Assembly: GCF_003070885.1 (NCBI RefSeq)
Contig: NZ_CP028913.1
Coordinates: 372,001-436,000, forward strand
Length of the DNA: 64,000 nt
Reading direction: 5' to 3'
Source of the DNA: Agromyces badenianii
Lineage (GTDB): Bacteria > Actinomycetota > Actinomycetes > Actinomycetales > Microbacteriaceae
Part shown: one piece after another, positions 9,149 through 45,125 of the stretch
Numbering within the stretch: the first letter of the stretch is position 1
How the letters are laid out: each line of letters starts with the position of its first letter
Notes under the pieces: generated by a model
What the model was told of the DNA's origin: nothing
Databases searched by the model: none
The model's input: the letters and a program-made list of their open reading frames with translations, nothing else
Position numbers and translations under genes: made by a program

Positions 9149-9760
9149 AACACCGACCGGAACGATCGCCTCGTGGTGCTCTATGCGACCGACACCATGG
9201 CCGACTGGGAATACGGTTACGTCGTCGCCGGGCTGGGCATGACCGGGGGTGCGTTCCCGCTCGTCTGCGCGGGCGAGACCACTGCCGAGGTTCGCACCAT
9301 GGGCGGGCTCAATCTCCGCCCCGACGCCGCCATCGCCGAACTCGATCCCGAGCGGATCGCACTGCTGGTGCTGCCCGGCGCCGACACCTGGGCCGAGGGG
9401 CACGAGCCGGTGCTCGCCCTCGCAGCACGCCTCGTCGAGGCCGGCACGCCCGTCGCTGCGATCTGCGGCGGCACGCTGGGACTCGCCCGGGCGGGTCTGC
9501 TCGACGAGCGGCGGCACACGAGCAATGCACCCGACTTCCTCCAGCAGGCGGTCGGATACACGGGGGTCGAGCACTACTCCGATGAGCGGGCGGTCGTCGA
9601 CGGCGCCGTGATCACCGCGGGGGCGACCGCGCCGGTCGACTTCGCCAGGGCGGTCTTCGAAGCGCTCGACGCCATGCCGGCACCGGTGATCGACGCGTGG
9701 TACGGCCTCTACACGACGGGTGAGCGCCGCTACTACGATGCGCTCGTCGGAGGCGTGTGA
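9140..9760 (+). CDS. DJ-1/PfpI-family protein (glutamine-amidotransferase-like fold)
   Basis: 206-residue DJ-1/PfpI protein. The nucleophile-elbow cysteine is C109 in AAICGGTLG, and an acidic residue near the N-terminus (E24 in MADWEYGYV) occupies the place of the conserved Glu/Asp. Members include deglycases, hydratases, chaperones and regulators, so the reaction is unassigned. Start ATG 9140 is chosen because it sits 6 nt after the -10 box and inside operator 2. The stop overlaps the start of the MarR gene (TGATG), so the two form one operon. A role in stress or electrophile detoxification under MarR control is plausible but inferred. Confidence 0.85.
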   Translation: MLTNTDRNDRLVVLYATDTMADWEYGYVVAGLGMTGGAFPLVCAGETTAEVRTMGGLNLRPDAAIAELDPERIALLVLPGADTWAEGHEPVLALAARLVEAGTPVAAICGGTLGLARAGLLDERRHTSNAPDFLQQAVGYTGVEHYSDERAVVDGAVITAGATAPVDFARAVFEALDAMPAPVIDAWYGLYTTGERRYYDALVGGV

Positions 9761-10224
9761 TGCCCGCTCGCACCCCGGCGGGCGACGCCCTCACCGCCCT
9801 CGTGCTGCCGGTGTTCGAGCTCAACGGCGAGTTCCTCGACGCCGCCCGCGACATCGCGGGACCTGCCGGTCTCACTCCGGCGCAATGGCAGGTGCTCGGC
9901 GCCACGCTCGACGAGGGGCTTCCCGTGGCCGAGATCGCGCGACGGGTCGGCCTCGGGCTCGCCAGGCAGAGCGTGCAGCGCACCGCCGACCTGCTCGTCG
10001 AGCGCGGATGGGCCGAGTACGCCGAGAATCCGCGGCACCGCAGGGCGAAGTTGCTGCGGCCGACGGTCGAGGGCCGCGCTGCCGTGAAGCGAAGCGCCGC
10101 CGCCCAGCACGCGTGGGCCGATGCGGTCGGCGATGCGGTCGGCGCCGAGGAGTTGCGTGCGGCCCGTGAAACGCTGCGCCGCGTCGTCGACGCTTCGCGT
10201 CGGGTTCGCGACCTCGTCGACTGA
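9760..10224 (+). CDS. MarR-family transcriptional regulator
   Basis: 154-residue winged-helix regulator. The central HTH (about residues 43-95) contains LTPAQWQVLGATLDEG, a recognition helix in VAEIARRVGLGLARQSVQRT, and the wing GWAEYAENPRHRRAK. Flanking helices make the dimer interface. It is translationally coupled to the DJ-1/PfpI gene and probably represses the shared promoter through the two TGACAGCA-containing palindromes. A GTG one codon upstream is also possible; the ATG overlapping the previous stop was taken. The effector is unknown. Confidence 0.88.
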   Translation: MPARTPAGDALTALVLPVFELNGEFLDAARDIAGPAGLTPAQWQVLGATLDEGLPVAEIARRVGLGLARQSVQRTADLLVERGWAEYAENPRHRRAKLLRPTVEGRAAVKRSAAAQHAWADAVGDAVGAEELRAARETLRRVVDASRRVRDLVD

Positions 10225-11482: not shown

Positions 11483-11562
11483 CGTGTGACCCTCGGTTGA
11501 CGCGTGTGACGGTCGGTTCCCTCGTGTGACGGCCGGTTCCCTCGTGTGACGGAGGCCCTCGC
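11483..11562 (+). repeat. Four direct 20-bp iterons upstream of the monooxygenase/ABC cluster
   Basis: Four head-to-tail copies start at 11483, 11503, 11523 and 11543, exactly 20 bp apart, each opening with CGTGTGAC. The third copy reads CGTGTGACGGCCGGTTCCCT; the first and fourth diverge in their last 12 bases. The array ends 20 bp before a TAGCGT -10-like hexamer (11582-11587). Spacing of about two helical turns is what a cooperatively binding regulator would use. The regulator is unknown. Confidence 0.8.
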
Positions 11563-11606
11563 CACATCCGTTCGACCTCCCTAGCGTCGGGGCCAGGAGG
11601 TCGAAC

Positions 11607-13061
11607 ATGACACGACTCATCATCGGCGCAATGGTCAGGGCCATCGGCGCCTACCCTTCGGGGTGGCGGTATCCCGGCGCGCACCGCGACCCCCGCAGGG
11701 ACGCTGCGGTGCTCCGGCGTACCGCCCAGGTCGCCGAGGCCGCCCGCCTCGACTACCTCTTCTTCGGCGACTGGCTCGCGACCGGGCACGACCTCGAGTT
11801 CCGCGACCCGTACCTCGTCGCACGCATCGACCCGATCTCGGCGATCACCTACCTCTCGGGCATCACCTCGCGCATCGGCCTCATCGCCACCGCGAACACG
11901 AGCTACGCCGACCCCTACACGCTCGCCCGGTCGACGGCGTCGATCGACCTGCTCTCCGGCGGGCGGGCGGGCCTGAACCTCGTGACCGGGGCCGAGCCGC
12001 GCGCCGCGGGCAACCACGGGCTCGACTTCCACGCCGCGAACGAGGCGCGGTACGACCGCGCCGTCGAGTTCGAGATCGTGCTGCGGCGTCTCTGGGACTC
12101 GTTCGAAGACGATGCATTCGTTGCGGATGCCGCGAGCGGCGCGTACCTCGACCCGCAGAAGCTGCACGCCACCGACTTCCACGGCGAGCACCTGAGCGTG
12201 ACCGGTCCGCTGAACGTCGCGCGCCCGGTGCAGGGGCACCTGCCGATCGTGCACGCCGGCACCTCGCCGCGTTCGCGGCTCTTCGCCGCGCAGAGCGCCG
12301 ACCTCGCACTCGTCGCGGTCGGCGGTCTCGAACACGCCGTCGGGATCCGCGAGGAGCTGCGCTCGCTCGCGTTCGAGTCGGGTCGCGATGACCGCACCCT
12401 GAAGGTGATCGCTCCGGTGCTGCCGATCGTCGGGGAGACCCGCGAACACGCCCAATCGATCGCCGACGAGCTCAGCGAGCTCGTGCAGATCGCGGAGGAC
12501 TGGCCGGGCGGGCCCCCCTCCGCCTTTCCCGCGAACCGCTCGATCGCCCAGCTCTCGGCCCTCGTCGGGGTCGACCTCGCCGAGCTGTCGCCCGACCGGT
12601 CCGTGACCACCGAGCTCGTCGCCCAGTTCAACGCGCCCGGGCAGGAGCTCGTCGAGATCGTCGCCGAGCGCACGGGTCGCAGCCCCGGCGGCGACCGTCC
12701 GCCGACGCTGCGCCACCTCGTCGTCGCGGCGTCGGTGAACGCCTCGATGGTCGTCGGCACCGCCGACGACATCGCCGCCGAGTTCGAGGCGTGGGGCGAT
12801 GCCGGCGCCGTCGACGGGTTCAACGTGCTCTCCGCCGTGCAGCCGCAGCAGTTCGAGGCGTTCGCGCTCCAGGTCGTTCCCGAACTGCAGCGACGCGGCG
12901 TCTTCCCCACCGAGTACGAGGGCGAGACGCTGCGCGATCACCTCGGTCTCGGCCGCCCCGGCAACGTGCACGTGACGCCCGGTGACGCTGCGTTGCAGGG
13001 CGCGTCACCGCGTGACCGTGCGGGTCGCGGCGCGGTTGAGACCGCCCCGCGGCATCCGTAA
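11607..13061 (+). CDS. Flavin-dependent monooxygenase, NtaA/SnaA/DszA (bacterial luciferase-like) family
   Basis: 484-residue FMNH2-dependent monooxygenase with the TIM-barrel of the NtaA/SnaA/DszA branch. Relatives oxidise nitrilotriacetate, dibenzothiophene sulfone, or N-acetylated S-alkyl cysteines (YtnJ/CmoJ). Family motifs visible include FFGDWLATGHD near the N-terminus, IDLLSGGRAGLNLVT and GHLPIVHAGTSPRSR. A separate flavin reductase would be needed and none is encoded nearby. It starts at ATG 11607 behind AGGAGG (11595-11600). It is the first gene of the ABC/monooxygenase cluster. The last ~35 residues look like poorly conserved read-through. Substrate is unknown. Confidence 0.85.
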   Translation: MTRLIIGAMVRAIGAYPSGWRYPGAHRDPRRDAAVLRRTAQVAEAARLDYLFFGDWLATGHDLEFRDPYLVARIDPISAITYLSGITSRIGLIATANTSYADPYTLARSTASIDLLSGGRAGLNLVTGAEPRAAGNHGLDFHAANEARYDRAVEFEIVLRRLWDSFEDDAFVADAASGAYLDPQKLHATDFHGEHLSVTGPLNVARPVQGHLPIVHAGTSPRSRLFAAQSADLALVAVGGLEHAVGIREELRSLAFESGRDDRTLKVIAPVLPIVGETREHAQSIADELSELVQIAEDWPGGPPSAFPANRSIAQLSALVGVDLAELSPDRSVTTELVAQFNAPGQELVEIVAERTGRSPGGDRPPTLRHLVVAASVNASMVVGTADDIAAEFEAWGDAGAVDGFNVLSAVQPQQFEAFALQVVPELQRRGVFPTEYEGETLRDHLGLGRPGNVHVTPGDAALQGASPRDRAGRGAVETAPRHP

Positions 13062-13126
13062 CTTCAACCCAACAGCCTGCCAAGGGCTCTGCACGATCCC
13101 ATCCCTGACCGAAGGAAGACCACCAG
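13062..13126 (+). promoter_or_regulatory. Spacer before the substrate-binding protein gene
   Basis: 65-bp gap ending in a GAAGGAAG ribosome-binding site. It is short enough for co-transcription with the monooxygenase gene. No convincing promoter or known riboswitch fold is visible. Confidence 0.35.
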
Positions 13127-14770
13127 ATGTCCACCCCACGCATCCGACGCCTCGCCGCAGCAGGCACCGCCGCGCTCGCCGCCGTCGCACTGCTCGCATC
13201 GTGCGCCGCACAGTCGGGCACGACGCAGACCGCAGAAGGCGGCGACCCCGTCGAGGGCGGCACGCTCACCTACCTCGAGTACCAGGCGCACACGACCCTC
13301 TACCCGCCGCAGGCCGGCTTCTACCCCAACGGCGGCATCGTGAACTCCATCACGGCCCGCCTGACCTGGCAGGACCCGGAGTCCCTCGAGATCGAGCCGT
13401 GGGTCGCGACCGAGTGGACGGTCAACGAGGATGCCACGGAGTACACCTTCGAGCTGCGCGACGACGTGACCTTCTCCGACGGCACGGTCGTCGACGCCGC
13501 GGCGGTCGCGAAGAACTTCGACACCTACGGCCTCGGCAACAAGGAGCTCGGCCTCACGATCTCCGAGGCGATCAACAACTACGCTTCGAGCGAGGTCGTC
13601 GACGACGACACCGTGACGTTCCGATTCTCGGCACCCGCCCCCGGCTTCCTGCAGGCCACCTCGACCATCAACTCGGGCCTCCTCTCGCCCGCGACCCTCG
13701 ACCGCAAGCTCGAGGAGTTCGGCGCCGGCGCGTCGGCCGAGATCATCGGCGCCGGCCCCTTCGTCGTCACCGAAGAGGAGATCGGCACCTCGCTGCACCT
13801 CGAGGCACGTGAGGACTACGACTGGGCACCGCCGTCGTTCGAACACCAGGGTCGCGCCTACCTCGACGCGATCGACATCGTCGTGACGCCCGAAGACAGC
13901 GTGCGCATCGGCTCGCTGCTCGCCGGCCAGGCCGACGTGATCCGCTACGTGCAGGCCTTCGACGAGGCGCAGGTCGCCAGCGCCGGCTTCGAGATCGTGG
14001 CCGCCCCGACGCGTGGTGTGAACAACTCGCTCGGCCTGCGATTCACGAACCCGCTGCTGAGCGACGTGCGGGTGCGTCAGGCGCTCGTGCACGGTGTCGA
14101 CGCACAAGAGGTCGTCGACACGATCTTCACCGAGAACTACCCGGTCGCGACCTCGCAGCTCGCCTCGACGGCCGCCGGCTACAAGGACGAGTCGAAGGCA
14201 CTCGCCTTCGACCCCGAGCTCTCGGAGGAACTGCTCGACGAGGCCGGCTGGGCAGTCGGCGCCGACGGCATCCGCGAGAAGGACGGCGAGCGGCTCTCGC
14301 TCACCGTCTACGAGGCGAAGCCGCAGCCGCTCTCGAAGCAGACCCTCGAGCTCGTCAGCCAGCAGCTGGCGAAGATCGGCGTCGAACTGAACGTCAAGGC
14401 CGGCGACGCCGGCAGCTACGCCACCGACACCCTCGACCCGCTGAAGACCGCGCTGTACCACTCGATGGTCGGACGCGCCGACCACGACGTGATCAAGAGC
14501 CAGTACTTCACGAAGAACCGCAACACGCTGCTCTCGAACGACGCGAAGCTCGACGAGCTGCTGACCGCCGTGGCATCCGAGCCCGACGCCGCCGAGCGCG
14601 ACAAGGCCTCCGCCGCCGTGCAGGACTACCTCACCGAGCAGGCCTACGTGATTCCGCTCTTCGAGGAGCCGCAGGTCTACGGCGCCGCGCCGTACGTGCA
14701 CGGCTTCACGACCGAGGCCGTCGCGCGCCCGCTGTTCTACGACACCTGGGTCGAGAAGCAGAAGAAGTAG
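13127..14770 (+). CDS. Solute-binding lipoprotein of a Dpp/Opp-type ABC importer (TIGR04028-like)
   Basis: 547-residue extracytoplasmic binding protein of the SBP_bac_5 family. A lipoprotein signal is clear: basic start MSTPRIRR, hydrophobic core, and lipobox LLASC with the modified Cys at about residue 26. The mature protein opens with GGTLTYLEYQAHTTLYPP and carries the family's WTVNEDATEYTFELRDDVTF segment. Wording and neighbours match, from memory, the TIGR04028 (KPN_01854) group, defined by its company with CMD proteins. It should present a peptide-like or opine-like solute to the permeases that follow. A hairpin sits just after its stop. Confidence 0.88.
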   Translation: MSTPRIRRLAAAGTAALAAVALLASCAAQSGTTQTAEGGDPVEGGTLTYLEYQAHTTLYPPQAGFYPNGGIVNSITARLTWQDPESLEIEPWVATEWTVNEDATEYTFELRDDVTFSDGTVVDAAAVAKNFDTYGLGNKELGLTISEAINNYASSEVVDDDTVTFRFSAPAPGFLQATSTINSGLLSPATLDRKLEEFGAGASAEIIGAGPFVVTEEEIGTSLHLEAREDYDWAPPSFEHQGRAYLDAIDIVVTPEDSVRIGSLLAGQADVIRYVQAFDEAQVASAGFEIVAAPTRGVNNSLGLRFTNPLLSDVRVRQALVHGVDAQEVVDTIFTENYPVATSQLASTAAGYKDESKALAFDPELSEELLDEAGWAVGADGIREKDGERLSLTVYEAKPQPLSKQTLELVSQQLAKIGVELNVKAGDAGSYATDTLDPLKTALYHSMVGRADHDVIKSQYFTKNRNTLLSNDAKLDELLTAVASEPDAAERDKASAAVQDYLTEQAYVIPLFEEPQVYGAAPYVHGFTTEAVARPLFYDTWVEKQKK

Positions 14771-14780
14771 CGCACGCGCC

Positions 14781-14811
14781 GGTCGAGGAGCGGCTCCGCC
14801 GCTCCTCGACC
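14781..14811 (+). terminator. Intra-operon hairpin after the binding-protein gene
   Basis: Perfect 13-bp arms GGTCGAGGAGCGG (14781-14793) and CCGCTCCTCGACC (14799-14811) around a 5-nt loop, with no T-tract. It lies 10 nt after the binding-protein stop, where ABC operons often place a partial terminator or 3'-end stabiliser. It belongs to the GGTCGAG...CTCGACC type of repeat. Confidence 0.65.
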
Positions 14812-14831
14812 AGCGGTTCCACGACCGGCAT

Positions 14832-14877
14832 CTCGAACACGACCGACACCTCGAACACGACCGACACCTCGAAAGGA
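14832..14877 (+). repeat. CA-rich tandem 18-mer leader ending in a Shine-Dalgarno
   Basis: CTCGAACACGACCGACAC occurs twice in tandem (14832-14849, 14850-14867) and runs into CTCGAAAGGA (14868-14877), the ribosome-binding site of the permease gene. The stretch is nearly free of complementary sequence, so it should stay unfolded. The CMD-protein gene at 19511 has the same design. Confidence 0.7.
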
Positions 14878-14885
14878 GCATGCCC

Positions 14886-15824
14886 ATGCCGTACCTCGCA
14901 CGCCGCGTCGGGCAAGCGCTCGTCGTGCTCGTCCTCGCCTTCACCGTGACGTTCGTGCTGTTGCAGGCACTGCCCGGCGACGCGGTCCTGATCAAGTTCG
15001 AAAGCCCCGAGCTCGGGCTGTCGCCGGAAGAGATCGACGACATCAGGGCGAGCTACGGCGCGGACGTGCCGCTCTGGCAGCAGTACCTGCACACGGTCTC
15101 GGGCTTCCTCGTCGGCGACTTCGGGTACTCCGTGCAGTACGGCACGCCGGTGCACGAGCTGCTCGGCGCAGCGCTGCCCGAGACACTCGCGCTCGCGGGG
15201 CTCGGCTTCCTCGTCGCGGTGCTCCTCGCCGTCGCGCTCGCGTTCCTCTCGACGCTCGCGCCGTTCGCGTGGCTGCGGCAGGCGCTCCGTTCGCTGCCCG
15301 GCGTGTTCGTCTCGGTGCCGGTCTTCTGGCTCGGCATCGTGCTGATCCAGGTCTTCTCCTTCCAGTTGAACCTCGTGCCGGTCATCGGGGCCGACCCCGT
15401 GCAGGCGCTCATCCTGCCGGTGCTGACGCTCGCGATCCCGATCTCGGCGCCGCTCGCGCAGGTGCTCGCCCGCTCGATCGACGACGTGCAGCTGTCGCCG
15501 TTCGTCGCAGTCGTGCGAGCCAAGGGCGCCGGTCCGGCGCGAGTGCTGTGGCGGGATGTCGCGCGCAACGCCCTGCTGCCGACGATCACGATCGCGGGCG
15601 TCCTGATCGGCGAGCTCATCGGCGGCGCCGTGGTCACCGAGACCGTCTTCGGTCGGGCGGGCGTCGGTCGCCTGACCGAGCAGGCGGTCACGAATCAGGA
15701 TGTCGCGGTGCTGCAGGCCATCGTGATCCTCGCCGCGGTCGTGTTCGTCGTCGTGAACCTCGTCGTCGACCTCGTCTATCCCGTGCTCGACCCGAGACTG
15801 AAGCGGAAGGCGGTGGCGGCATGA
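14886..15824 (+). CDS. ABC importer permease, DppB type
   Basis: 312-residue inner-membrane permease (BPD_transp_1, DppB/OppB type) with about six membrane spans. The N-terminal helix (about residues 8-30) is followed by the usual large extracytoplasmic loop. The coupling-helix (EAA) region is near residue 205-225 (VVRAKGAGPARVLWRDVARN). ATG 14880 is also in frame, but it is 1 nt from AAAGGAG; the second ATG at 14886 has a proper 7-nt spacing and is chosen. The stop overlaps the next start (ATGA). Confidence 0.9.
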   Translation: MPYLARRVGQALVVLVLAFTVTFVLLQALPGDAVLIKFESPELGLSPEEIDDIRASYGADVPLWQQYLHTVSGFLVGDFGYSVQYGTPVHELLGAALPETLALAGLGFLVAVLLAVALAFLSTLAPFAWLRQALRSLPGVFVSVPVFWLGIVLIQVFSFQLNLVPVIGADPVQALILPVLTLAIPISAPLAQVLARSIDDVQLSPFVAVVRAKGAGPARVLWRDVARNALLPTITIAGVLIGELIGGAVVTETVFGRAGVGRLTEQAVTNQDVAVLQAIVILAAVVFVVVNLVVDLVYPVLDPRLKRKAVAA

Positions 15825-16756
15825 GCGTCGACAGCGAACTGGTCGGCAGCGCGATCGTCAGGAAGGCGAAGGGTCTCGCGACTCGTCCTCGTTCGTCGGA
15901 CGCTCCTCGACCGGCGGGGGCGACGGCGACGGACGTGCCTCGACCGGCGGCCGGGCACCGGCTCCGCGGCATCCGTGCCGGGCTCGTGCTCGCCTGGCTC
16001 GTCATCGCCGTCGTGATCGCGTGGGCGATCGTGCCGTGGCTCTTCACCGGACAGAACCCGATCAGCGGCGTTCCGGCCGAGAAGCTGCAGGCGCCGAGTC
16101 TCGCGCACCTCTTCGGAACCGACGCGATCGGCCGCGACCTCTTCACCCGCGTGGTCTACGGCGCGGTGAACTCACTGTCGGGCGCATTCGTCGCGGTGAC
16201 GGTCGGCCTCGTCGGCGGCACCCTGCTCGGGGTGCTCGCGGGCTCGCTCGGCGGCGTGATCGATGCGATCGTCATGCGCGTCGTCGACGTGCTGCTGTCC
16301 ATCCCCGGCCTGCTGCTCGCGCTCTCGATCATCATCCTGCTCGGCTTCGGCACCGTGACCGCGGCGATCGCCGTCGGCGTCGGCTCGATCGCGGCGTTCG
16401 CCCGCCTCTCCCGCTCCGAAGTGGTGCGAGTGCGGCAGAGCGACTACGTCGAGGCCGCGTTCGGTTCGGGTGCGAGGCTGCACACCGTGCTGTTCCGGCA
16501 CGTGCTGCCCAACTCGCTCACCGCCGTCATCGGGCTCGCCGCCCTGCAGTTCGGCGCAGCGATCCTCGCGATCTCGACGCTCGGCTTCCTCGGCTACGGC
16601 GCACCGCCGCCGACGCCCGAATGGGGTCTGCTCATCGCCGAGGGCCGCAACTACGTCGCGACCTCGTGGTGGCTCACCGTGCTGCCGGGGCTCGTGGTCG
16701 TCGCCGTCGTGCTCTCGGCCAACCGCATCAGTCACGGACTCGGGAGGAACCGATGA
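15821..16756 (+). CDS. ABC importer permease, DppC type, with repeat-derived N-terminus
   Basis: 311-residue DppC/OppC-type permease. The membrane part starts near residue 53 and has five to six spans. The FGTDAIGRDLFTRVVYGA motif and the coupling-helix segment (DYVEAAFGSGARLHTVLFRHV) are typical. Codons about 17-45 are unusual: they encode an Arg/Ser/Pro/Ala string. The underlying DNA (15872-15917) has GGTCTCG at one end and CTCCTCGACC at the other, like the dispersed hairpin repeat after the binding-protein gene. This suggests repeat insertion into the cytosolic tail. Couplings are ATGA at both ends. Confidence 0.9.
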   Translation: MSVDSELVGSAIVRKAKGLATRPRSSDAPRPAGATATDVPRPAAGHRLRGIRAGLVLAWLVIAVVIAWAIVPWLFTGQNPISGVPAEKLQAPSLAHLFGTDAIGRDLFTRVVYGAVNSLSGAFVAVTVGLVGGTLLGVLAGSLGGVIDAIVMRVVDVLLSIPGLLLALSIIILLGFGTVTAAIAVGVGSIAAFARLSRSEVVRVRQSDYVEAAFGSGARLHTVLFRHVLPNSLTAVIGLAALQFGAAILAISTLGFLGYGAPPPTPEWGLLIAEGRNYVATSWWLTVLPGLVVVAVVLSANRISHGLGRNR

Positions 16757-18405
16757 GCGCACCGCTGCTCGCGATCGAGCACCTCGACGTCGCCTACCGC
16801 ACCTCGGACGGGCCTCGCCGCGTCGTGCACGACGTCTCGTTCGACGTGCTCCCGGGCGAGGTCGTCGCCCTCGTCGGCGAGTCCGGTTCAGGCAAGACGA
16901 CCACTTCGAGCGCCGTGCTCGGGCTGCTGCCGGGTGGCGGACGCATCGAATCCGGAGCCATCCGGCTCTCGGGCACCGACATCTCGGGATGGAACGACCG
17001 GCGACTGCAGAGCGTGCGCGGCGCCCGCATCGGCTACATCCCGCAGGACCCGGTGTCGTCGCTGAACCCGGTGCGCCCCATCGGCGTGCAGCTCGCCGAC
17101 GCGTTCCGCATCCACCGTCGCGGCGACCGCCGCGACCACCGCGGCCGCGTGCTCGAACTGCTCGAGCGCGTCGGCCTCGACGACCCGGCGCTCCGCGCGA
17201 GGCAGTACCCCCATGAACTCTCGGGCGGCATGCGGCAGCGCGTGCTCATCGCGGGCGCCGTGGCCCTCGAGCCCGAGCTCGTGATCGCCGACGAGCCCAC
17301 GAGCGCCCTCGACGTGACCGTGCAGCGGCGCATCCTCGACCTGATCGACGAGCTGCGCAGCGAGCACGGCACGGCGGTGCTGTTCGTCACCCACGACCTC
17401 GGCGTGGCGGCCGAGCGCGCCGAGCGCGTCGTCGTCATGCAGAACGGCCGAGTCGTCGAGCACGGAGAGACCGGGGCGGTGCTCGACGCTCCCGCGCAGG
17501 AGTACACGAAGCAGTTGCTGGCGGATGCCCCGGGGCTCGCCGAGCACGCGTTCCGCCACCCCCGCCCACCGCTGTACCTTCGCGACGCGAGCGTCGCGGC
17601 GGCCGAGAACCCCTTCGTGCTCGAGGCATCCGGGCTCGTGAAGGAGTACTCGCTCGGCCGCGGCCGTGAGCCGTTCCGAGCCGTCGACGAGGTGTCGTTC
17701 AACGTGCTGCGCGGAACCACGCACGCGATCGTGGGGGAGTCGGGCTCGGGCAAGACGACGACCGCGCGCATCATCGCGCGATTCGTGACGCCCGACTCGG
17801 GTGACGTCAGGCTCGGCGGCGAGTCCGTGACCGCGCTCGCGGGGGCGGCCAAGCGCGCGTTCCGGCGCCGGGTGCAGCTCGTCTACCAGAACCCGTTCGC
17901 CTCGCTCGACCCGCGTCAGTCGGTCGAGGAGATCATCGCCGAGCCGCTGCGCAACTTCGGCGTCGGCGACCGACGTTCGCGGGCGGAATCCGCTCGACGG
18001 CTCATCGACCGGGTCGCGCTGCCCGAGGGAGTCGCTTCGCGCCGCCCGTCGGAGCTGTCGGGCGGGCAGCGTCAGCGCGTGGCGATCGCGCGCGCCCTCG
18101 CCCTCGAACCCGAGCTCGTCATCCTCGACGAGGCCGTGTCGGCGCTCGACGTCACCGTGCAGGCGCGCATCCTCGAGCTGCTCGAGGAGCTGCAGGGCGA
18201 ACTCGGCCTCAGCTACCTCTTCATCTCGCACGACCTCTCGGTCGTCGCCCGCCTCAGCCACTCGGTGTCGGTGATGCGCCGCGGCCGCATCGTCGAGACC
18301 GGGCCGACGGAGCGGGTCTTCCGGGCACCGCAGCACGACTACACCCGGGAACTGCTCGATGCGGTTCCCCGAAGAGCAGCACCCACAGGAAAGGCCATCG
18401 CATGA
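16753..18405 (+). CDS. Fused dual-ATPase subunit of the ABC importer (DppD-DppF fusion)
   Basis: 550-residue protein with two complete nucleotide-binding domains. Domain 1 has Walker A GESGSGKTT near residue 40, signature LSGGMRQR and Walker B LVIADEP. Domain 2 has GESGSGKTT near residue 333, signature LSGGQRQR and Walker B LVILDEA. Oligopeptide-type insertions follow the Walker A regions (VYQNPFASLDPRQS). Together with the two permeases and the lipoprotein it completes a five-domain importer. It overlaps both neighbours by 4 nt. Confidence 0.93.
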   Translation: MSAPLLAIEHLDVAYRTSDGPRRVVHDVSFDVLPGEVVALVGESGSGKTTTSSAVLGLLPGGGRIESGAIRLSGTDISGWNDRRLQSVRGARIGYIPQDPVSSLNPVRPIGVQLADAFRIHRRGDRRDHRGRVLELLERVGLDDPALRARQYPHELSGGMRQRVLIAGAVALEPELVIADEPTSALDVTVQRRILDLIDELRSEHGTAVLFVTHDLGVAAERAERVVVMQNGRVVEHGETGAVLDAPAQEYTKQLLADAPGLAEHAFRHPRPPLYLRDASVAAAENPFVLEASGLVKEYSLGRGREPFRAVDEVSFNVLRGTTHAIVGESGSGKTTTARIIARFVTPDSGDVRLGGESVTALAGAAKRAFRRRVQLVYQNPFASLDPRQSVEEIIAEPLRNFGVGDRRSRAESARRLIDRVALPEGVASRRPSELSGGQRQRVAIARALALEPELVILDEAVSALDVTVQARILELLEELQGELGLSYLFISHDLSVVARLSHSVSVMRRGRIVETGPTERVFRAPQHDYTRELLDAVPRRAAPTGKAIA

Positions 18406-19430
18406 CCCGGATCGGATTCTTCACCAGGCTGCTCGACGACGCCGGTCCCGCCGAGCGATACCGCATCGCGACCGAGCAGATCGTCGCCGCCGAGCGCCAC
18501 GGCTTCGACTCGGCCTGGGTCGCGCAGCATCACTTCCACGCCGCGGAGGGCGGGCTGCCCTCGCCGTTCGTGTTCCTCGCGCACGCGGCAGCGGCGACCA
18601 CGCGGATCCGGCTCGGCACCGCCGTGGTGACGCTGCCGCTCGAAGACCCCGTGCGCGTCGCCGAGGACGCGGTCGTGCTCGACCTGCTCTCGGGCGGGCG
18701 GGCCGAACTCGGCGTCGGCTCGGGCTCGACGCCCGCGTCGTTCCTCGCGTTCGGCGAGCGCTTCGAGGATCGCTCCGAGGTGTTCGCCGAGAAGCTCGAC
18801 GCCCTCGTGGCAGCGTTCGCCGGCGGCGCGCTCGCCGACGAGGCGAACCGTCTGCACCCTTCGGGCCGCGACCTGCTCGGCCATGTCTGGCAGGCCACGT
18901 TCTCGGCCTCGGGCGGTGCCCGCGCCGGGCGTGCCGGTCACGGCCTGATGCTCTCGCGCACGCAGCCGAGGCCGGCGGCCGCGCCTGGCGGGCCCGGGCG
19001 GCGCGCATCGATCGCGGAGCTGCAGCAGCCGATCGTCGACGCCTATCTCGAGGCGCTGCCGCACGGAGCGACCCCGCGCATCCTCGCCTCGCGCACCCTC
19101 TTCGTCGCCGACTCCCGCGATGAGGCGCGTCGCCACGCGGAGCTCGGGATCAGGCGGGCCGCGGTGATGTTCGCGCGCGCCGGGCAGCCGCCGATCGGCG
19201 ACACGCTCGACGAACTCATCGCCTCGTACGACGCGCACGTGGGCACCGTCGAGGAGGTCATCGAATCGCTCGCCGCCGACACCGTCGCCGCGCAGGCGAC
19301 CGAGGTGGCGTTCCAGGTGCACTCGGTGGACCCGCCGCATGAGCTCGTGCTCCGCTCGATCGAGCTCATCGCGAGCGAGGTCGCCCCCGCGCTCGGATGG
19401 GGAAGCCGCGTCTCCGCCGACGCCGCCTGA
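18402..19430 (+). CDS. Luciferase-like FMN-dependent monooxygenase (TIGR04027/KPN_01858-like)
   Basis: 342-residue LLM-class flavoprotein. The N-terminal barrel start MTRIGFFTRLLDDAG is followed by DSAWVAQHHFH, a typical LLM motif, and by LDLLSGGRAELGVGSG. It belongs to a different branch from the NtaA-type enzyme at the head of the cluster, so the locus encodes two distinct monooxygenases. Company with the binding protein and the two CMD genes matches the TIGR04027 family as I recall it. The reaction is unknown; an FMN/FMNH2 oxidation of the imported compound is the simplest reading. Confidence 0.87.
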   Translation: MTRIGFFTRLLDDAGPAERYRIATEQIVAAERHGFDSAWVAQHHFHAAEGGLPSPFVFLAHAAAATTRIRLGTAVVTLPLEDPVRVAEDAVVLDLLSGGRAELGVGSGSTPASFLAFGERFEDRSEVFAEKLDALVAAFAGGALADEANRLHPSGRDLLGHVWQATFSASGGARAGRAGHGLMLSRTQPRPAAAPGGPGRRASIAELQQPIVDAYLEALPHGATPRILASRTLFVADSRDEARRHAELGIRRAAVMFARAGQPPIGDTLDELIASYDAHVGTVEEVIESLAADTVAAQATEVAFQVHSVDPPHELVLRSIELIASEVAPALGWGSRVSADAA

Positions 19431-19460
19431 ACCCGACCGCCAGCAGAGCCACCACCAGAC

Positions 19461-19502
19461 CGCACGACCGAACGCACGACCAAACGCACGACCTCGAAAG
19501 GA
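19461..19502 (+). repeat. CA-rich 12-bp tandem leader ending in a Shine-Dalgarno
   Basis: CGCACGAC recurs at 19461, 19473 and 19485 (12-bp period) and runs into CTCGAAAGGA (19493-19502), identical in its last 10 bases to the leader of the DppB-type permease gene. Confidence 0.65.
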
Positions 19503-19510
19503 CGACCATC

Positions 19511-20107
19511 ATGACCGACATCATCGACCGGCTCGCGGGGGTGACACCGGGCGGGACCGTCGACGCACTGCGCCGGCACCGACCCGCCACGCGTGACAAC
19601 GCGCAGGCGAGCTACCACGCCCTGTTCGAGAACATCGAAGCGGCGAGCGCGACGCTCGCCGAACGTGCGGCCGTCGCCCAGTTCGTCGCGATCCTGCACG
19701 ACGACGAGGTGGCCGCCGCCCACTACGCCGCCCTCACCCGCGAGTCCGGCGGCGAGGCGCTCGAGCGCGCCGTCACCGAGCTCGCCGAGGCCGGTCGCAC
19801 CGAAGGGCCCTATGGCGAGTACCCGGCCGAGGGACCCCTCGTCGGCGAGAGCGTCGCGGGGCTCCGCTTCGCCGTCGACGATCACGCCCGCGAGATCTTG
19901 GGCGAGCGAACCGCAGCATCGCTCGAGCACGCACACCTGCTCGTCTTCCGCCCGCGGGAGTCCTCGGTCGCGGCGCTCACCGCGCTGGGCGCCGCGGGCT
20001 GGTCGACCGACGGCATCGTCACCCTCTCCCAGCTCGTGTCGTTCCTCGCGTTCCAACTGCGCGTCGCGGCCGGGCTCCGCCTGCTCGACACGGAGGACGC
20101 AGCATGA
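19511..20107 (+). CDS. CMD-domain protein (TIGR04029/Avi_7170-like)
   Basis: 198-residue all-helical protein related to carboxymuconolactone decarboxylase/AhpD folds. No CxxC pair is present, so it probably lacks peroxidase chemistry and may be the partner of the next protein. Start ATG 19511 is taken because an AAAGGA sits about 9 nt upstream; earlier in-frame starts fall in the repeat leader or the previous gene. The stop overlaps the next start (ATGA). Family assignment rests on cluster context and general similarity. Confidence 0.78.
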   Translation: MTDIIDRLAGVTPGGTVDALRRHRPATRDNAQASYHALFENIEAASATLAERAAVAQFVAILHDDEVAAAHYAALTRESGGEALERAVTELAEAGRTEGPYGEYPAEGPLVGESVAGLRFAVDDHAREILGERTAASLEHAHLLVFRPRESSVAALTALGAAGWSTDGIVTLSQLVSFLAFQLRVAAGLRLLDTEDAA

Positions 20108-20778
20108 CCGAACAGACGATCGACCGGGCCGAGGCGGCCACCACGTGCACGGCGGGTGCCCCGGCGCCCGCTGCCGCCGGCATCCTCAGCCACCCCGAGG
20201 CATCCGTGCCCCTGGCTTTCACGCAGGCCGAGATCGGCTGGCTGCCGTGGCTCGAGCCGGCGGAAGAGGCGACGCTCACCGAGCGTCAGTACGAGGGGCT
20301 CGTCGACCGCGGGCGTGCCAAGAGCGACTACTTCCGGCTGCTCGTGCGCGACCCCGACATCCTGAGGGCGCGCACGCTCACCGACAAGGACATCTTCTAC
20401 AACGCGAACGACGGCCTGCCCCGCGCCGAGCGCGAGCTCGCTGCAGCCGCCACGAGCCGCTTCAACGGCTGCATCTTCTGCGCATCGGTGCACGCGCGCT
20501 TCGCGACGCACCACTCGAAGCGTCATGACGACGTGCAGCGCCTGCTCGACGACGGCATCGACGCGGTGCAGGATGCCGCGTGGCGCGCCATCATCGATGC
20601 GTCCGTCGCCCTCGCAGCGACGCCGTCGCGACTCGAGACGCGGCACCTCGACGCGCTGCGAGCAGCGGGCTTCGACGAGCAGGCGGTCTCCGACGTCATC
20701 CACTCGGCGGCGTTCTTCAACTGGGCGAACCGGCTCATGCTCTCGATCGGCCAGCCCGACAACCCGCCCGGCGAGTAG
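20104..20778 (+). CDS. Alkylhydroperoxidase-domain protein (TIGR04030/Avi_7169-like)
   Basis: 224-residue AhpD-like protein. The redox motif CIFCASVH (CxxC-x2-xH) lies near residue 122, with an acidic residue about 15 positions upstream, matching the AhpD proton-relay layout. It could reduce a peroxide or sulfenate made by the flavin enzymes, or act as a thiol-disulfide partner. It is coupled to the CMD gene and ends the tightly packed part of the operon. Confidence 0.83.
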   Translation: MTEQTIDRAEAATTCTAGAPAPAAAGILSHPEASVPLAFTQAEIGWLPWLEPAEEATLTERQYEGLVDRGRAKSDYFRLLVRDPDILRARTLTDKDIFYNANDGLPRAERELAAAATSRFNGCIFCASVHARFATHHSKRHDDVQRLLDDGIDAVQDAAWRAIIDASVALAATPSRLETRHLDALRAAGFDEQAVSDVIHSAAFFNWANRLMLSIGQPDNPPGE

Positions 20779-20838
20779 GCACCGCGGAGGCCGTGTGTCG
20801 TAATGCGTCGCGGTGTGACTCAGTGCGGCGGGCGACGG

Positions 20839-20868
20839 TTGAGCGGGGTGCCCCGCGAACCGTAGCCT
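20839..20868 (+). promoter_or_regulatory. Candidate promoter of the SufS-like gene
   Basis: TTGAGC (20839-20844), an 18-bp spacer and TAGCCT (20863-20868). A GTGTGAC word (20813-20819), the same heptamer found in each 20-bp iteron of the cluster promoter, lies 20 bp upstream of the -35. Confidence 0.5.
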
Positions 20869-20900
20869 CGTCGCCAACCACCGGCAACCGAGGAGCATCC

Positions 20901-22361
20901 GTGATCGTCAGCGAGCAGCGCGCGACGGCGACCCGTCTGGGCGCTCGCCGCGTCCAGACGGTGTCCGAAGTGCTCGACGCGCTGCCCGCTGCGGCGCAGA
21001 ATGACGTCGCGATCGAGGTCGACGTGAGTGATGTGCCGGGGTCCGCACGCAGTGCGGGCCCCGGCCCCCTCGCCGCGCTCGCCGATGCCGGCCTCGAGGT
21101 TCCCGTGCTCGGCGGCGGGCTCGCGCGGCACGTGAACCTCGACATCGCAGCCTCCGCCCCGGCGTTCGACGTCGTGGCGGCGCACGTGGCCCGGGTGCTG
21201 CCGTACTACGCGAGCGTGCATCGCGGAACGGGGTACCCGTCGCAGGTGTCGACCTCGCTCGTGGAGGACGCCCGGCTCGTGGTCGCGCGGCACGTCGGCG
21301 CCCGAGACGACGACCTCGTCGTCTTCACCCGCAACACGACCGATGCGCTGAACCTGCTCGCCGGCGCGGTGCCGGGCGACACGGTGGTGCTTGACCTCGA
21401 GCACCACGCCAACCTGCTGCCGTGGCACTCGCGCCGGGTCGTCGAGGCGCAGGCGACGATCGCCGGCACGCTCGACGCCCTCGACGCCGAGCTCGCTCGG
21501 CGGCCCGCAGCACTGCTGTCGGTGACCGGCGCATCGAACGTCACCGGCGAGGTGCTGCCGATCGGATTGCTCGCCGGCATCGCGCATGCCCGCGGCGCAC
21601 GCATCGCGGTCGACGCCGCGCAACTGCTTCCGCACCGTCGCGTCGACCTCGTGGCATCCGGCATCGACTACCTCGCGTTCTCGGGTCACAAGGCGTACGC
21701 GCCGTACGGGGCCGGAGCACTCGTCGGTCGCGCCGACTGGCTCGATTCCGCCCCCGCGTACCTCGCCGGCGGCGGAGCCGTCGACACGGTGCGCATCGAC
21801 GGCGTCGATTGGAAGCGCGGTGTCGAACGCCATGAGGCGGGCACCCCGAACGTCGTCGGCATCGTTGCGCTGGCCCGCGCGCTCGCCGAACTCGAGCGGC
21901 TCGGCGACGACGCGCGCCGTGACCACGAGCACGCGCTCACCGTGCGCCTGCACGAAGGACTCGCCGCCCAGCCGGGCGTGCGGGTCATCCGCAGCTTCGC
22001 CGACACGGCGGCGGGGCTCACCGGCTCAGACGACGCAGGGCTCGGCGACCGCCTCGCGATCGCCACGATCGAACTCGAGCGCGGTTCGGTGGGCCTCCTC
22101 GCCGCGGCCCTCGGCGCGGAGCACGGCATCTCGGTGCGCGCCGGCCGATTCTGCGCGCACCCCTTCTTCGAACGCGCGGCGTCGCGCTCCAACGGACTGC
22201 GCGCGAGCCTCGGCGCAGGCAGTTCGGCCGACGACGTCGACCGATTCCTCGACGCGCTCGCCTCGCTCGTCGCCGACGGTCCGGCGCACGCCTACGAGCG
22301 TTCGCACGGCGGCTGGTGCCCGCGCGTCGACGACCGGCCTCGGCCGCACTTCGGCGACTGA
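20901..22361 (+). CDS. Class V PLP enzyme, cysteine-desulfurase/SufS-like
   Basis: 486-residue fold-type I PLP enzyme. The PLP lysine is in SGHKAYAPYG near residue 264; the phosphate-binding segment TRNTTDALN and the VDAAQLLPHRRVD aspartate motif are also present. An ~80-residue N-terminal extension and a C-terminal Cys (GGWCPR) depart from standard SufS. GTG 20901 follows GAGGAG at good spacing. No suf genes are adjacent, so it may be a dedicated C-S lyase or desulfurase serving the upstream cluster rather than Fe-S assembly (inference). Confidence 0.82.
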   Translation: MIVSEQRATATRLGARRVQTVSEVLDALPAAAQNDVAIEVDVSDVPGSARSAGPGPLAALADAGLEVPVLGGGLARHVNLDIAASAPAFDVVAAHVARVLPYYASVHRGTGYPSQVSTSLVEDARLVVARHVGARDDDLVVFTRNTTDALNLLAGAVPGDTVVLDLEHHANLLPWHSRRVVEAQATIAGTLDALDAELARRPAALLSVTGASNVTGEVLPIGLLAGIAHARGARIAVDAAQLLPHRRVDLVASGIDYLAFSGHKAYAPYGAGALVGRADWLDSAPAYLAGGGAVDTVRIDGVDWKRGVERHEAGTPNVVGIVALARALAELERLGDDARRDHEHALTVRLHEGLAAQPGVRVIRSFADTAAGLTGSDDAGLGDRLAIATIELERGSVGLLAAALGAEHGISVRAGRFCAHPFFERAASRSNGLRASLGAGSSADDVDRFLDALASLVADGPAHAYERSHGGWCPRVDDRPRPHFGD

Positions 22362-37339: not shown

Positions 37340-37786
37340 GTGCCAGTGAACCCCGAGCTGCAGGGGCGGGTCCTCCCGCCGACCGAGCCCTACCTCGTCG
37401 GTCGTGAGAAGGTGCGCGAGTTCGCCCGTGCCGTCTTCGCGACGAATCCGATCAACCTCGATCCCGAGGCCGCGCGCGCGGCCGGCTACGACGACGTGGT
37501 CGCTCCGCCGACCTTCCCGATCGTCGTGCAAGAGCTCACGCTCGCCCAATTGCTGGCCGAGCCCGACGCCGGCATCGACTTCTCCCGAGTCGTGCACGGC
37601 GATCAGCGCTTCAGCTACTCACGCCCCGTCGTCGCCGGCGACCTGCTCACCGCGACCCTGACGGTCTCGAGCGTCAAGACCCTCGGCGCGCACTCGATCG
37701 TCGTCGCCGAGTCGGTCATCGTCGATGCCGACGGCGCCCACGTGGTGACCGCCCTGTCGCAGCTCGTCGTGCGAGGAGAAGACTGA
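37340..37786 (+). CDS. hadA: MaoC-type (3R)-hydroxyacyl dehydratase subunit A
   Basis: 148-residue hot-dog protein of the FAS1-like dehydratase type, the non-catalytic partner in mycobacterial HadAB/HadBC. It would act with HadB in dehydrating (3R)-hydroxyacyl-ACP during fatty-acid elongation. The GTG start sits 6 nt after TAGACT. The hadA-hadB-murB order is conserved in actinobacteria and supports the call. The stop overlaps the hadB start (TGATG). Confidence 0.88.
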   Translation: MPVNPELQGRVLPPTEPYLVGREKVREFARAVFATNPINLDPEAARAAGYDDVVAPPTFPIVVQELTLAQLLAEPDAGIDFSRVVHGDQRFSYSRPVVAGDLLTATLTVSSVKTLGAHSIVVAESVIVDADGAHVVTALSQLVVRGED

Positions 37787-38212: not shown

Positions 38213-39412
38213 ATGAGCGGCGACATCCGTTTCGCGGAGTACACGACCCTGCGGGTCGGCGGTCCGATCGATCGACTCCTCACGGCGACGACGCAGCGCG
38301 ATCTCGTCGACCTCGCCGGTGAGACCTGGGCGACGGATGCCCCGTGGCTCGCGCTCGGCGGGGGCTCCAACCTGCTGGTCGGCGACGAGGGGTTCGACGG
38401 CACGGTGATCCGCGTCGCGACGCACGGCATCGAGGTGCTGCCGGGCTCCGGTGACGAGCACTCGGTGCGCGTGCGCGTGCAGGCCGGCGAGTCGTGGGAC
38501 GACCTCGTCGCCTGGACGGTCGAGCACGGCTACTCGGGCATCGAGGCGCTCTCTGGCATTCCCGGCTCGGTCGGTGCGGCGCCGGTGCAGAACATCGGCG
38601 CCTACGGGCAGGAGCTCGCGTCGACGCTCGTCGCGATCGAGTTCCTCGACGAGGGGGCCGATGCCCCGCGACGCATGACGGCCGACGAGCTCGAGCTCGC
38701 CTATCGCACCTCGGTGCTGAAGCAGGGCCTGCGGGGCATCGTCGTGACGGTCGAGCTCGAACTGCACGACACCGCCGCCGAGCGCGAGGTGCTGGGAGAG
38801 GCACTCGGCCGGCCGATCGCCTACGGGCAGCTCGCTGCCGCGCTGCGCGTGCAGCAGGGCGACCGGGTGCCGATCGCGAAGGTTCGCGAGAGCGTGCTCG
38901 AGCTGCGCGCGTCGAAGGGCATGGTGCTCGATGCGGCCGACGCCGACTCGGTGAGCGCCGGCTCGTTCTTCACCAACCCGATCGTCGGCGAGCACGTCGC
39001 GCGCACGCTGCCCGCGGCGGCACCGCGATGGTACGTCGAACCCGAGGCGCCCGACGAGGTGATCCCGCTCGGTTCGCTCGGCTCGGAGTCGCCGCTCGAC
39101 GCCTTCCTCGCGCACCAGGCCGAGCTCGAGGCATCCGACAGCGTCTCCGCCGACCGGAACGCGAGCGAGACGGGGCCGCTCGTGAAGCTCTCGGCCGCGT
39201 GGCTGATCGAGCAGTCGGGCATCGGCCGGGGGTTCGCGCTGCCCGGTTCCCGCGCCGCGATCTCGTCGAAGCACACCCTCGCCCTCACCAATCGGGGCGA
39301 CGCCTCGGCCGACGAGATCGTGCAGCTCGCCAGATTCGTGCAGAGCCGGGTGCAGGCCGAGTTCGGCATCGTGCTGCGGCCCGAACCCGTGCTCGTCGGC
39401 GTCGAGCTCTAG
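38213..39412 (+). CDS. murB: UDP-N-acetylenolpyruvoylglucosamine reductase
   Basis: 399-residue flavoenzyme of peptidoglycan precursor synthesis, reducing UDP-GlcNAc-enolpyruvate to UDP-MurNAc. The FAD-binding motif is LALGGGSNLLV; IPGSVGAAPVQNIGAYGQE and SAGSFFTNPIV (with the catalytic Ser) are diagnostic. It is longer than the E. coli enzyme owing to a C-terminal insert before AAWLIEQSGI. Co-location with hadAB is a shared actinobacterial trait. Confidence 0.94.
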   Translation: MSGDIRFAEYTTLRVGGPIDRLLTATTQRDLVDLAGETWATDAPWLALGGGSNLLVGDEGFDGTVIRVATHGIEVLPGSGDEHSVRVRVQAGESWDDLVAWTVEHGYSGIEALSGIPGSVGAAPVQNIGAYGQELASTLVAIEFLDEGADAPRRMTADELELAYRTSVLKQGLRGIVVTVELELHDTAAEREVLGEALGRPIAYGQLAAALRVQQGDRVPIAKVRESVLELRASKGMVLDAADADSVSAGSFFTNPIVGEHVARTLPAAAPRWYVEPEAPDEVIPLGSLGSESPLDAFLAHQAELEASDSVSADRNASETGPLVKLSAAWLIEQSGIGRGFALPGSRAAISSKHTLALTNRGDASADEIVQLARFVQSRVQAEFGIVLRPEPVLVGVEL

Positions 39413-42791: not shown

Positions 42792-43452
42792 GCGCGTGCG
42801 GGTCGTCATCGTCGACGACCACTCGATCTTCCGGTCGGGCCTGAAGGCCGACCTCGACGACTCGATCGAGGTCGTCGGCGAGGCGCACGATGTCGAGTCG
42901 GCGGTCGCGGCGGTGACGGATGCCGCACCCGACGTCGTGCTCCTCGACGTGCACCTGCCCGGGCTCGCGGTGCCGGCGGGCACGAGCGGCGGCGCCGAGG
43001 TGATCCGGCGCGCTGCGGCATCCGTGCCTTCGACGCGCTTTCTCGCGCTCTCGGTCTCGGACAAGGCCGAAGACGTCGTCGGCGTGATCCGTGCCGGCGC
43101 CCGCGGATACATCACGAAGGGCTCTTCGGGCACCGACGTCAGCCGTGCCGTGCACGCCGTGGCGGGCGGCGACGCGGTGTTCTCGCCGAAGCTCGCCGGC
43201 TTCGTGCTCGACGCCTTCGGCGCGGCGGTCGGGGAGACGGCGGCGGCGAGCGACGAGCTCGACCGGCTCTCGGCGCGAGAGCAGGAGGTCATGCGGCTGA
43301 TCGCCCGCGGTTACGCCTACAAGGAGGTGGCGGCCGAGCTCTTCATCTCGACGAAGACGGTCGAGACGCACGTCTCCGCGGTGCTGCGCAAGCTCCAGCT
43401 CTCGAGCCGGCACGAGCTCACGGCGTGGGCGAATGCCCGGCGGTTGCTGTGA
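42784..43452 (+). CDS. NarL/LuxR-type response regulator of the PspC kinase
   Basis: 222 residues: receiver domain with DDH acidic pair, phospho-Asp in VVLLDVHLPG (near residue 57) and Lys in YITKGSSG; C-terminal LuxR HTH with LSAREQEVMRLIARGYAYKE and TKTVETHVSAVLRKL. GTG 42784 overlaps the kinase gene. Its likely target is the divergent PspC promoter. The end overlaps the convergent PAP2-kinase gene by 35 bp. Confidence 0.9.
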   Translation: MAERVRVVIVDDHSIFRSGLKADLDDSIEVVGEAHDVESAVAAVTDAAPDVVLLDVHLPGLAVPAGTSGGAEVIRRAAASVPSTRFLALSVSDKAEDVVGVIRAGARGYITKGSSGTDVSRAVHAVAGGDAVFSPKLAGFVLDAFGAAVGETAAASDELDRLSAREQEVMRLIARGYAYKEVAAELFISTKTVETHVSAVLRKLQLSSRHELTAWANARRLL

Positions 43453-45064: not shown

Positions 45065-45125
45065 CCCGACATCGTAGGCGCGTGGCGTCGGCAGGCTCAA
45101 CCGCGAGCCTCGGCCGGTCGCGAGG

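Follow-up and report, generated by a model that had tools for sequence, protein, structure and literature searches.

We analysed a 64,000-nucleotide stretch of the Agromyces badenianii genome (NCBI RefSeq assembly GCF_003070885.1, contig NZ_CP028913.1, positions 372,001 to 436,000), hereafter the window, in whose coordinates all positions are given. Between 11607 and 22361, nine plus-strand genes in tight, mostly overlapping order encode two flavin monooxygenases, an ATP-binding cassette (ABC) importer, two small proteins, one of them with a CxxC motif, and a pyridoxal phosphate (PLP) enzyme. We conclude that this cluster is very probably a sulfur-starvation scavenging system.

The gene cluster and its protein families

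Proteins were scored against NCBIfam models at their curated cut-offs, with Pfam as a domain check. The first gene encodes LLM1 (11607..13061), a cysteine-free, YtnJ/CmoJ-like luciferase-like monooxygenase (LLM) of the NtaA/DmoA family TIGR03860 (374.6 bits, cut-off 279.7). The importer genes follow: a substrate-binding lipoprotein (SBP, 13127..14770) whose single cysteine lies within a lipobox-like LLASC, the DppB-like permease PermB (14880..15824; NCBIfam and Pfam), the DppC-like permease PermC (15821..16756; NCBIfam) and a fused ABC ATPase with two ABC_tran stretches (16753..18405; NCBIfam and Pfam). Behind them lie LLM2 (18402..19430), a second cysteine-free flavin monooxygenase, CMD1 (19511..20107), an AhpD-like protein with the CxxC motif (20104..20778) and a SufS-like class V PLP enzyme (20901..22361; NCBIfam and Pfam). 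PermC starts at ATG 15821, overlapping the PermB stop, and the ATPase at ATG 16753; the PLP gene probably starts at GTG 20901, and CMD1 probably at ATG 19511 within a longer open reading frame (ORF) that begins at 19397.

An earlier note, made from the DNA alone, had described this gene content and order and had placed four of the proteins in the families TIGR04027 to TIGR04030. All nine genes were confirmed, Pfam agreeing for the monooxygenase, SBP, permease, ATPase, AhpD-like and PLP proteins. The model search likewise bore out the family assignments, since all four cut-offs are passed by neighbouring genes: SBP with TIGR04028 (801.9 bits, cut-off 468.5), LLM2 with TIGR04027 (506.5, cut-off 412.9), CMD1 with TIGR04029 (190.5, cut-off 100.75) and the AhpD-like protein with TIGR04030 (272.6, cut-off 233.15). 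A search for an RNA leader gave no Rfam match at the gathering threshold between 10000 and 23500.

Cysteine and methionine are depleted across the cluster

Sulfur-starvation proteins are broadly observed to be poor in cysteine and methionine, as measured in Gordonia oxygenases (PMC7661421, in the section consulted). The proteins of the cluster share this property. Together they hold 17 internal Cys and Met in 3448 residues (0.49%), a figure taken from raw counts minus six start methionines, with PermC, the ATPase and the PLP enzyme counted as fragments. By protein, the raw Cys/Met counts are 0/3 in 484 residues for LLM1, 1/2 in 547 for SBP, 0/2 in 314 for PermB, 0/1 in 302 for the PermC fragment, 0/3 in 548 for the ATPase fragment, 0/3 in 342 for LLM2, 0/1 in 198 for CMD1, 3/2 in 224 for the AhpD-like protein and 2/0 in 489 for the PLP fragment. 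The AhpD-like protein, with its CxxC motif, is not depleted (1.79%).

The genome itself provided the background: 253 of its ORFs average 2.15%, and 14 of them lie at or below 0.6%. These ORFs come from 20 regions, 18 roughly evenly spread and two picked for matches to the flavin reductase MsuE; because one of the picked regions (L239) contributed 4 of the 14 low-sulfur ORFs, the background is conservative. ORF calling relied on a simple GC-position script, and this set, like the near/far sets described below, includes some shadow ORFs. The depletion ends at both edges of the cluster, the flanking desaturase having 3.01% and the next gene 2.88%.

Relatives in other genomes show the same pattern: 0.34% for SBP (n=63), 0.57% for LLM2 (n=80), 0.14% for CMD1 (n=65), 0.69% for PermB, 0.76% for PermC and 0.51% for the ATPase, against 2.94% for distant ORFs (n=178). 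When pooled by genus label, the core lies below the distant ORFs in every one of the 29 labels; some labels are metagenome-assembled genomes (MAGs), and the lineages are not independent. Known sulfur proteins fall in a similar range (TauA 0.00%, one sulfonate-binding protein 0.32%). The PLP enzyme has 0.26% over its matched stretch, against 1.45% in the genome's true SufS.

Elsewhere in the window, a MarR-type regulator upstream of the desaturase (9757-10224) has 0.65%. Other Cys/Met-poor proteins are a FAS1-type dehydratase (37340-37786), a MurB-type protein (38213-39412) and a PAP2/diacylglycerol-kinase protein (43418-45100); no sulfur link was seen for these three.

Direct repeats mark LLM1 and the PLP gene in Agromyces

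Upstream of LLM1, four GTGTGAC boxes 20 bp apart form three overlapping GTGTGAC-N13-GTGTGAC units (11484..11550, + strand), the proximal one ending 56 bp before the gene. Nowhere else in the 3.05-Mb genome does an exact paired box occur. Across 60 Agromyces genomes the pattern occurs at 21 sites in 16 genomes, and the reversed-pattern control at none. Eighteen sites lie upstream of LLM1 (15, with 56-60 bp between the end of the proximal repeat and the start codon) or of the PLP gene (three, 43-44 bp before the called ORFs); the other three (that of G025 and one each in G031 and G019) stand before neither gene. A TAGCGT hexamer follows the box in the window and in eight of the nine Agromyces loci displayed. 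Before LLM1, locus L035 lacks both box and hexamer, and locus L034 (G023) has an imperfect box. The window also holds a one-mismatch copy upstream of the PLP gene (20793..20819, + strand), as does Agromyces G081, and a like copy is found in L164.

The position of the boxes suggests an activator site, possibly one under sulfur control. The repeats had been noted earlier as iterons: they are real, and they are conserved upstream sites of LLM1 and PLP genes in Agromyces. A plasmid-type iteron was rejected because the boxes stand at a constant distance from the same gene in many genomes. A GlnR box was set aside by eye, the period being 20 bp and not 22 bp, which we take to be the GlnR period. In two Agromyces genomes (L157, L160), exact boxes at 12004 and 12408 lie beside a serA-like gene (seen by eye) and lack the central GTT.

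LLM1 and the PLP enzyme form a separable module

TIGR04028 exceeds its cut-off in nine of 60 genomes searched for it, namely the window's own, seven others of the genus and one other. Gene order, whose comparison the earlier note had called for, proved well conserved: each of the seven genus loci has homologues of all nine genes, and six keep the order. The PLP gene of the seventh (L035) is moved and inverted, and in G081 the complete set has other genes inserted before the PLP gene. Among the fetched Agromyces stretches, G003, G019, G031, G036 and G076 carry LLM1 and the PLP gene without importer, LLM2, CMD1 or AhpD-like genes, and G013 carries LLM1, LLM2 and the PLP gene; G019 seems to have an LLM2 homologue (P0023) elsewhere in its genome. 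We regard LLM1 and the PLP enzyme as a module that shares one box and can stand apart, and the importer, LLM2, CMD1 and the AhpD-like protein as the widespread core.

Of 198 genomes from the order, 55 carry PLP homologues (E <= 1e-90); these span 19 of 72 genera and have 46-58% identity outside Agromyces. Under a stricter limit (1e-120), LLM1 homologues are present in 7 of the 198. Four of 16 distant PLP loci (L218, L220, L221, L222), from other actinobacteria, lie near rhodanese-type and Cys/Met-metabolism genes; in L220, which was tested, a rhodanese and an O-succinylhomoserine sulfhydrylase both pass their cut-offs. L218, L220 and L222 belong to one family and L221 to another; the sulfur genes are adjacent in three and about 4 kb off in L221. 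Judged by these neighbours, the PLP enzyme in its own right belongs to sulfur metabolism over part of its distribution.

In L208 (G008), LLM1 and the PLP gene are adjacent by coordinates, the LLM1 frame contains one TGA, and the neighbours are a divergent SBP/ATPase set and an LLM2-like protein (33%). The window's own genome holds a second sulfur-starvation-like locus (L239:3229-13200, G000 545-565 kb), with an NtaA-type LLM (0.23% Cys+Met), a TIGR04027-like LLM that at 225 bits stays below cut-off, an enzyme of OAH-sulfhydrylase type and an MsuE reductase that exceeds its cut-off. A box search at this locus found only a two-mismatch site, which is at chance level (reversed control 6 at the same tolerance).

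Residues and relatives of the enzymes

The best solved relative of LLM1 is YtnJ (1tvl/1yw1) at 232.8 bits, followed in this single-score comparison by DszA at 209.5 bits; DmoA is also among its relatives. LLM2 belongs to the same family as PDB 8K74, the Klebsiella protein PCX02514, whose residues 4-326 score 560.8 bits against TIGR04027. Those 323 residues, counted by eye, include 0 Cys and 2 Met.

All 75 relatives of the AhpD-like protein retain its CxxC, in spite of the sulfur thrift of the cluster. CMD1 had been labelled a carboxymuconolactone decarboxylase (CMD) protein, a label that calls for correction: no Pfam model matches it, and its aligned part is without cysteine in 64 of 65 relatives. 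Judging from this cysteine pattern, the AhpD-like protein may be the active half of the pair and CMD1 the structural half.

In the PLP enzyme, the SGHK lysine and the FCAH cysteine are invariant in 18 of 18 aligned sequences, so that it has both the PLP lysine and the active-site-loop cysteine of a cysteine desulfurase. Its earlier description as SufS-like stands for the class V PLP fold and falls for SufS itself, as it scores 228.8 bits against TIGR01979 (cut-off 475.1); the genome carries a SufS elsewhere (513.6 bits). Nor is it an encapsulin cargo desulfurase by NF041166 (187.1 bits, cut-off 800).

Gene neighbours across the wider family

The survey covered 80 named genome loci, the best among at least 588 relatives, together with 14 annotated plasmid regions (of 126 matching records). 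The common core comprises SBP, two permeases, ATPase, LLM2, CMD1 and the AhpD-like protein; some loci are without the importer part, and in the Enterobacterales loci examined CMD and AhpD are fused as one protein. Beside LLM2 in six loci (Bosea, Variovorax, Bradyrhizobium, two MAGs or unclassified; L077 tested), the importer is replaced by a Peripla_BP_6/BPD_transp_2 transporter, which is of the branched-chain amino-acid type, and one such Bradyrhizobium locus also has a MetQ-type lipoprotein above cut-off. The enzymes are the constant part and the importer is exchangeable.

Five of the 14 annotated plasmid regions contain clear sulfur genes. On the Pantoea At-9b and P. dispersa plasmids, the core is adjoined by GNAT, LLM, M20 and MsnO8 LLM genes, a Cmo-like set in which the At-9b LLM is NtaA-type. 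Taurine ABC genes and an SsuD-like LLM adjoin the core in Allorhizobium ampelinum S4, which we take to be the namesake Avi locus, and sulfonate ABC genes and NtaA do so in Rhizobium NXC24. A Variovorax region encodes a LysR protein (391.5 bits to the CysB-family model, cut-off 402), a rhodanese-repeat protein and an LLM. The SsuD-like monooxygenases near relatives reach 208-223 bits, below the SsuD cut-off.

Unannotated loci add further sulfur genes. Rhodanese-type genes adjoin LLM1 in Paenarthrobacter, Arthrobacter and Microbacterium-like genomes (L057 and L226 tested). A Microbacterium yannicii locus includes an MsuE flavin mononucleotide (FMN) reductase above cut-off with cystathionine beta-synthase-like and gamma-synthase genes, and the neighbours of Agromyces G081 include MsuE, also above cut-off. 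Two Acidovorax loci (L078:15-2804, tested, and the similar L123:27-2816) have an encapsulin shell fragment and a cargo cysteine desulfurase near the core, the desulfurase of L078 scoring above cut-off. In Nonomuraea (L097:16246-17685), a family 2B encapsulin shell gene lies about 4 kb from the core.

Pfam families were also counted in 116 near and 116 far ORFs of 44 dereplicated loci. The near ORFs gave nine Glyoxalase_3, four rhodanese and two NlpA matches, none of which is among the 25 of 105 far families listed.

Within the Pantoea At-9b operon, the nearest solved chain to the M20 protein is YxeP (358 bits, next 208), which we take to be ScmP. An N-acetylcysteine stage may therefore exist, at least in Pantoea; M20 N-acetylcysteine deacetylases are described in part of PMC12757645.

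A proposed scavenging route and its alternatives

Protein composition, together with the neighbours in part of the relatives, strongly supports sulfur acquisition, and so upholds the guess made in the earlier note. Its comparison with Cmo/Ytm has likewise gained from YtnJ as the best solved relative of LLM1 and from the Cmo-like set in the two Pantoea plasmids. As for the substrate, we lean slightly towards a sulfur-starvation operon for S-substituted cysteine; an S-substituted cysteine or mercapturate is our best guess. An amino-acid-type substrate is indicated because the Pantoea M20 protein is nearest to YxeP and because the replacement importers are of the branched-chain amino-acid type.

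In the proposed route, the lipoprotein-dependent importer (TIGR04028, DppB/C-type permeases, fused ATPase) would take up a small organosulfur molecule, the likeliest candidates being an S-substituted cysteine, an N-acetylcysteine conjugate (mercapturate) or a short peptide. LLM2 would oxygenate the import, and an MsuE-type reductase whose gene lies outside the cluster would supply the reduced FMN; the reductase of the second locus is a likely source. LLM1, as a CmoJ/DszA relative, would then cleave the C-S bond to give a carbonyl compound and a cysteine-sulfenate-like product. The AhpD-like protein, paired with cysteine-free CMD1, could reduce this product or clear peroxide, and the PLP enzyme might finally remove sulfur from the resulting cysteine or cysteine sulfinate.

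Several observations weigh against this route. YtnJ leads DszA by 23 bits only, so LLM1 may act on something else. CmoO is presumably an MsnO8-type monooxygenase, and LLM2 is not of that subfamily (72.9 bits, cut-off 166.95). The nine-gene cluster has no N-acetyltransferase or M20 deacetylase by NCBIfam and Pfam. Full clusters in G023 and G017 are without an exact box before LLM1. Nine of the 14 annotated plasmid regions, including those of Paracoccus, Roseateles and Terrarubrum, have no clear sulfur gene, though one of the nine, that of P. vagans, contains the M20 gene. The near/far sulfur excess is modest, as a single far rhodanese hit could hide in the unlisted families, and Bac_luciferase gives four near and three far matches. 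Finally, five of nine other Agromyces SBPs (below the TIGR04028 cut-off) also have less than 0.7% Cys+Met, which makes SBP composition alone weak evidence.

The same operon might instead serve another organosulfur class under sulfur starvation, such as a sulfonate, sulfone, thioether or sulfated peptide. All the composition evidence would fit equally, the taurine/sulfonate transporters and SsuD-like monooxygenases beside some relatives would be explained, and DszA and DmoA are LLM1 relatives as well. The YxeP-like M20 protein, the amino-acid-type replacement transporters and the PLP desulfurase point instead to an amino-acid-like substrate, and we consider another class rather unlikely. Less probable still is a repair or detoxification operon that removes electrophile-damaged cysteine, with sulfur recovery incidental. 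Electrophile detoxification does yield S-alkylcysteine (PMC10863075, in part of its text), and an AhpD-like redox protein with Glyoxalase_3 neighbours (9 of 116 near ORFs) would suit it; yet a dedicated importer and Cys/Met depletion argue for use under sulfur scarcity, and the Glyoxalase_3 proteins are sulfur-poor themselves (0.69%, n=18). That TIGR04027 proteins are oxidases of poly(acrylic acid) or of comparable carboxylate chains, for which PMC11354265 in part reports chain cleavage, binding and point mutants of its family member PCX02514, is very improbable, given a kcat of 0.00214 per second with NADPH and without flavin, a Cys/Met loss that extends to 8K74 itself, and sulfur neighbours that it leaves unexplained; polyacrylate oxidation is probably not the natural role of the family.

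Returning to scavenging from S-substituted cysteine, we tentatively extend it to the four families as a whole, a joint reading that we hold at somewhat below even. TIGR04027-04030 would form an unrecognised widespread route in which preformed, mercapturate-like cysteine S-conjugates are imported under sulfur starvation and stripped oxidatively, with the CxxC AhpD/dead-CMD pair replacing the thiol reductase of known pathways. Agromyces would add a monooxygenase-desulfurase module controlled through the 20-bp direct repeats by a dedicated activator, and the polyacrylate activity would be a side reaction.

Discussion

In those parts of the open-licence literature searched, no sulfur role is assigned to the TIGR04027-04030 families, and the only published TIGR04027 activity found is polyacrylate oxidation; a word search of one Serratia and one Rhodococcus paper on sulfur found no mention of the four. 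According to part of PMC7194016, KPN_01858 and TauC are up in Klebsiella in low-iron medium, the replete control having received Fe2(SO4)3. This result is suggestive and is confounded by the iron added as ferric sulfate.

Four curated families of no known function, from soil, plant-associated and clinical isolates, thus gain a testable role, and the published assignment of a TIGR04027 enzyme is called into question. The analysis yields a regulatory box usable to pull down its binding protein, a standalone monooxygenase-desulfurase pair and a short substrate list for one SBP.

We see the cluster as a new variation on the flavin-dependent scavenging of organosulfur compounds. The salvage of S-alkylcysteines by Ytm/Cmo in Bacillus includes an uptake system. 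Like this Bacillus subtilis system (with Scm/Yxe), for which the CmoO/CmoJ chemistry is set out in part of PMC10863075, the cluster has two flavin monooxygenases, one probably a YtnJ/CmoJ relative, and the Pantoea M20 protein is nearest YxeP. It differs in its SBP_bac_5 importer, in having TIGR04027 and not MsnO8, in its AhpD-type CxxC protein, in the absence of an acetyltransferase and in the added SufS-like PLP enzyme. With Ssu/Tau/Msu it shares an ABC importer with a flavin-dependent monooxygenase, sulfur-poor proteins and, near some relatives, an MsuE-type reductase, whereas it differs in its transporter family, its monooxygenase subfamilies and its AhpD/CMD pair.

The family 2A encapsulin cargo cysteine desulfurase is likewise a class V PLP desulfurase with a link to sulfur starvation and stands beside the core in the two Acidovorax loci; in Synechococcus, sulfur starvation induces its system, and knockouts there showed no growth defect (PMC8049743, in part). 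The PLP enzyme described here lacks the long N-terminal domain of that desulfurase and falls far below its family cut-off. Klebsiella PCX02514, finally, is as much a member of TIGR04027 as LLM2, but it was published as a polyacrylate oxidase, and the word sulfur is absent from the consulted portion of PMC11354265.

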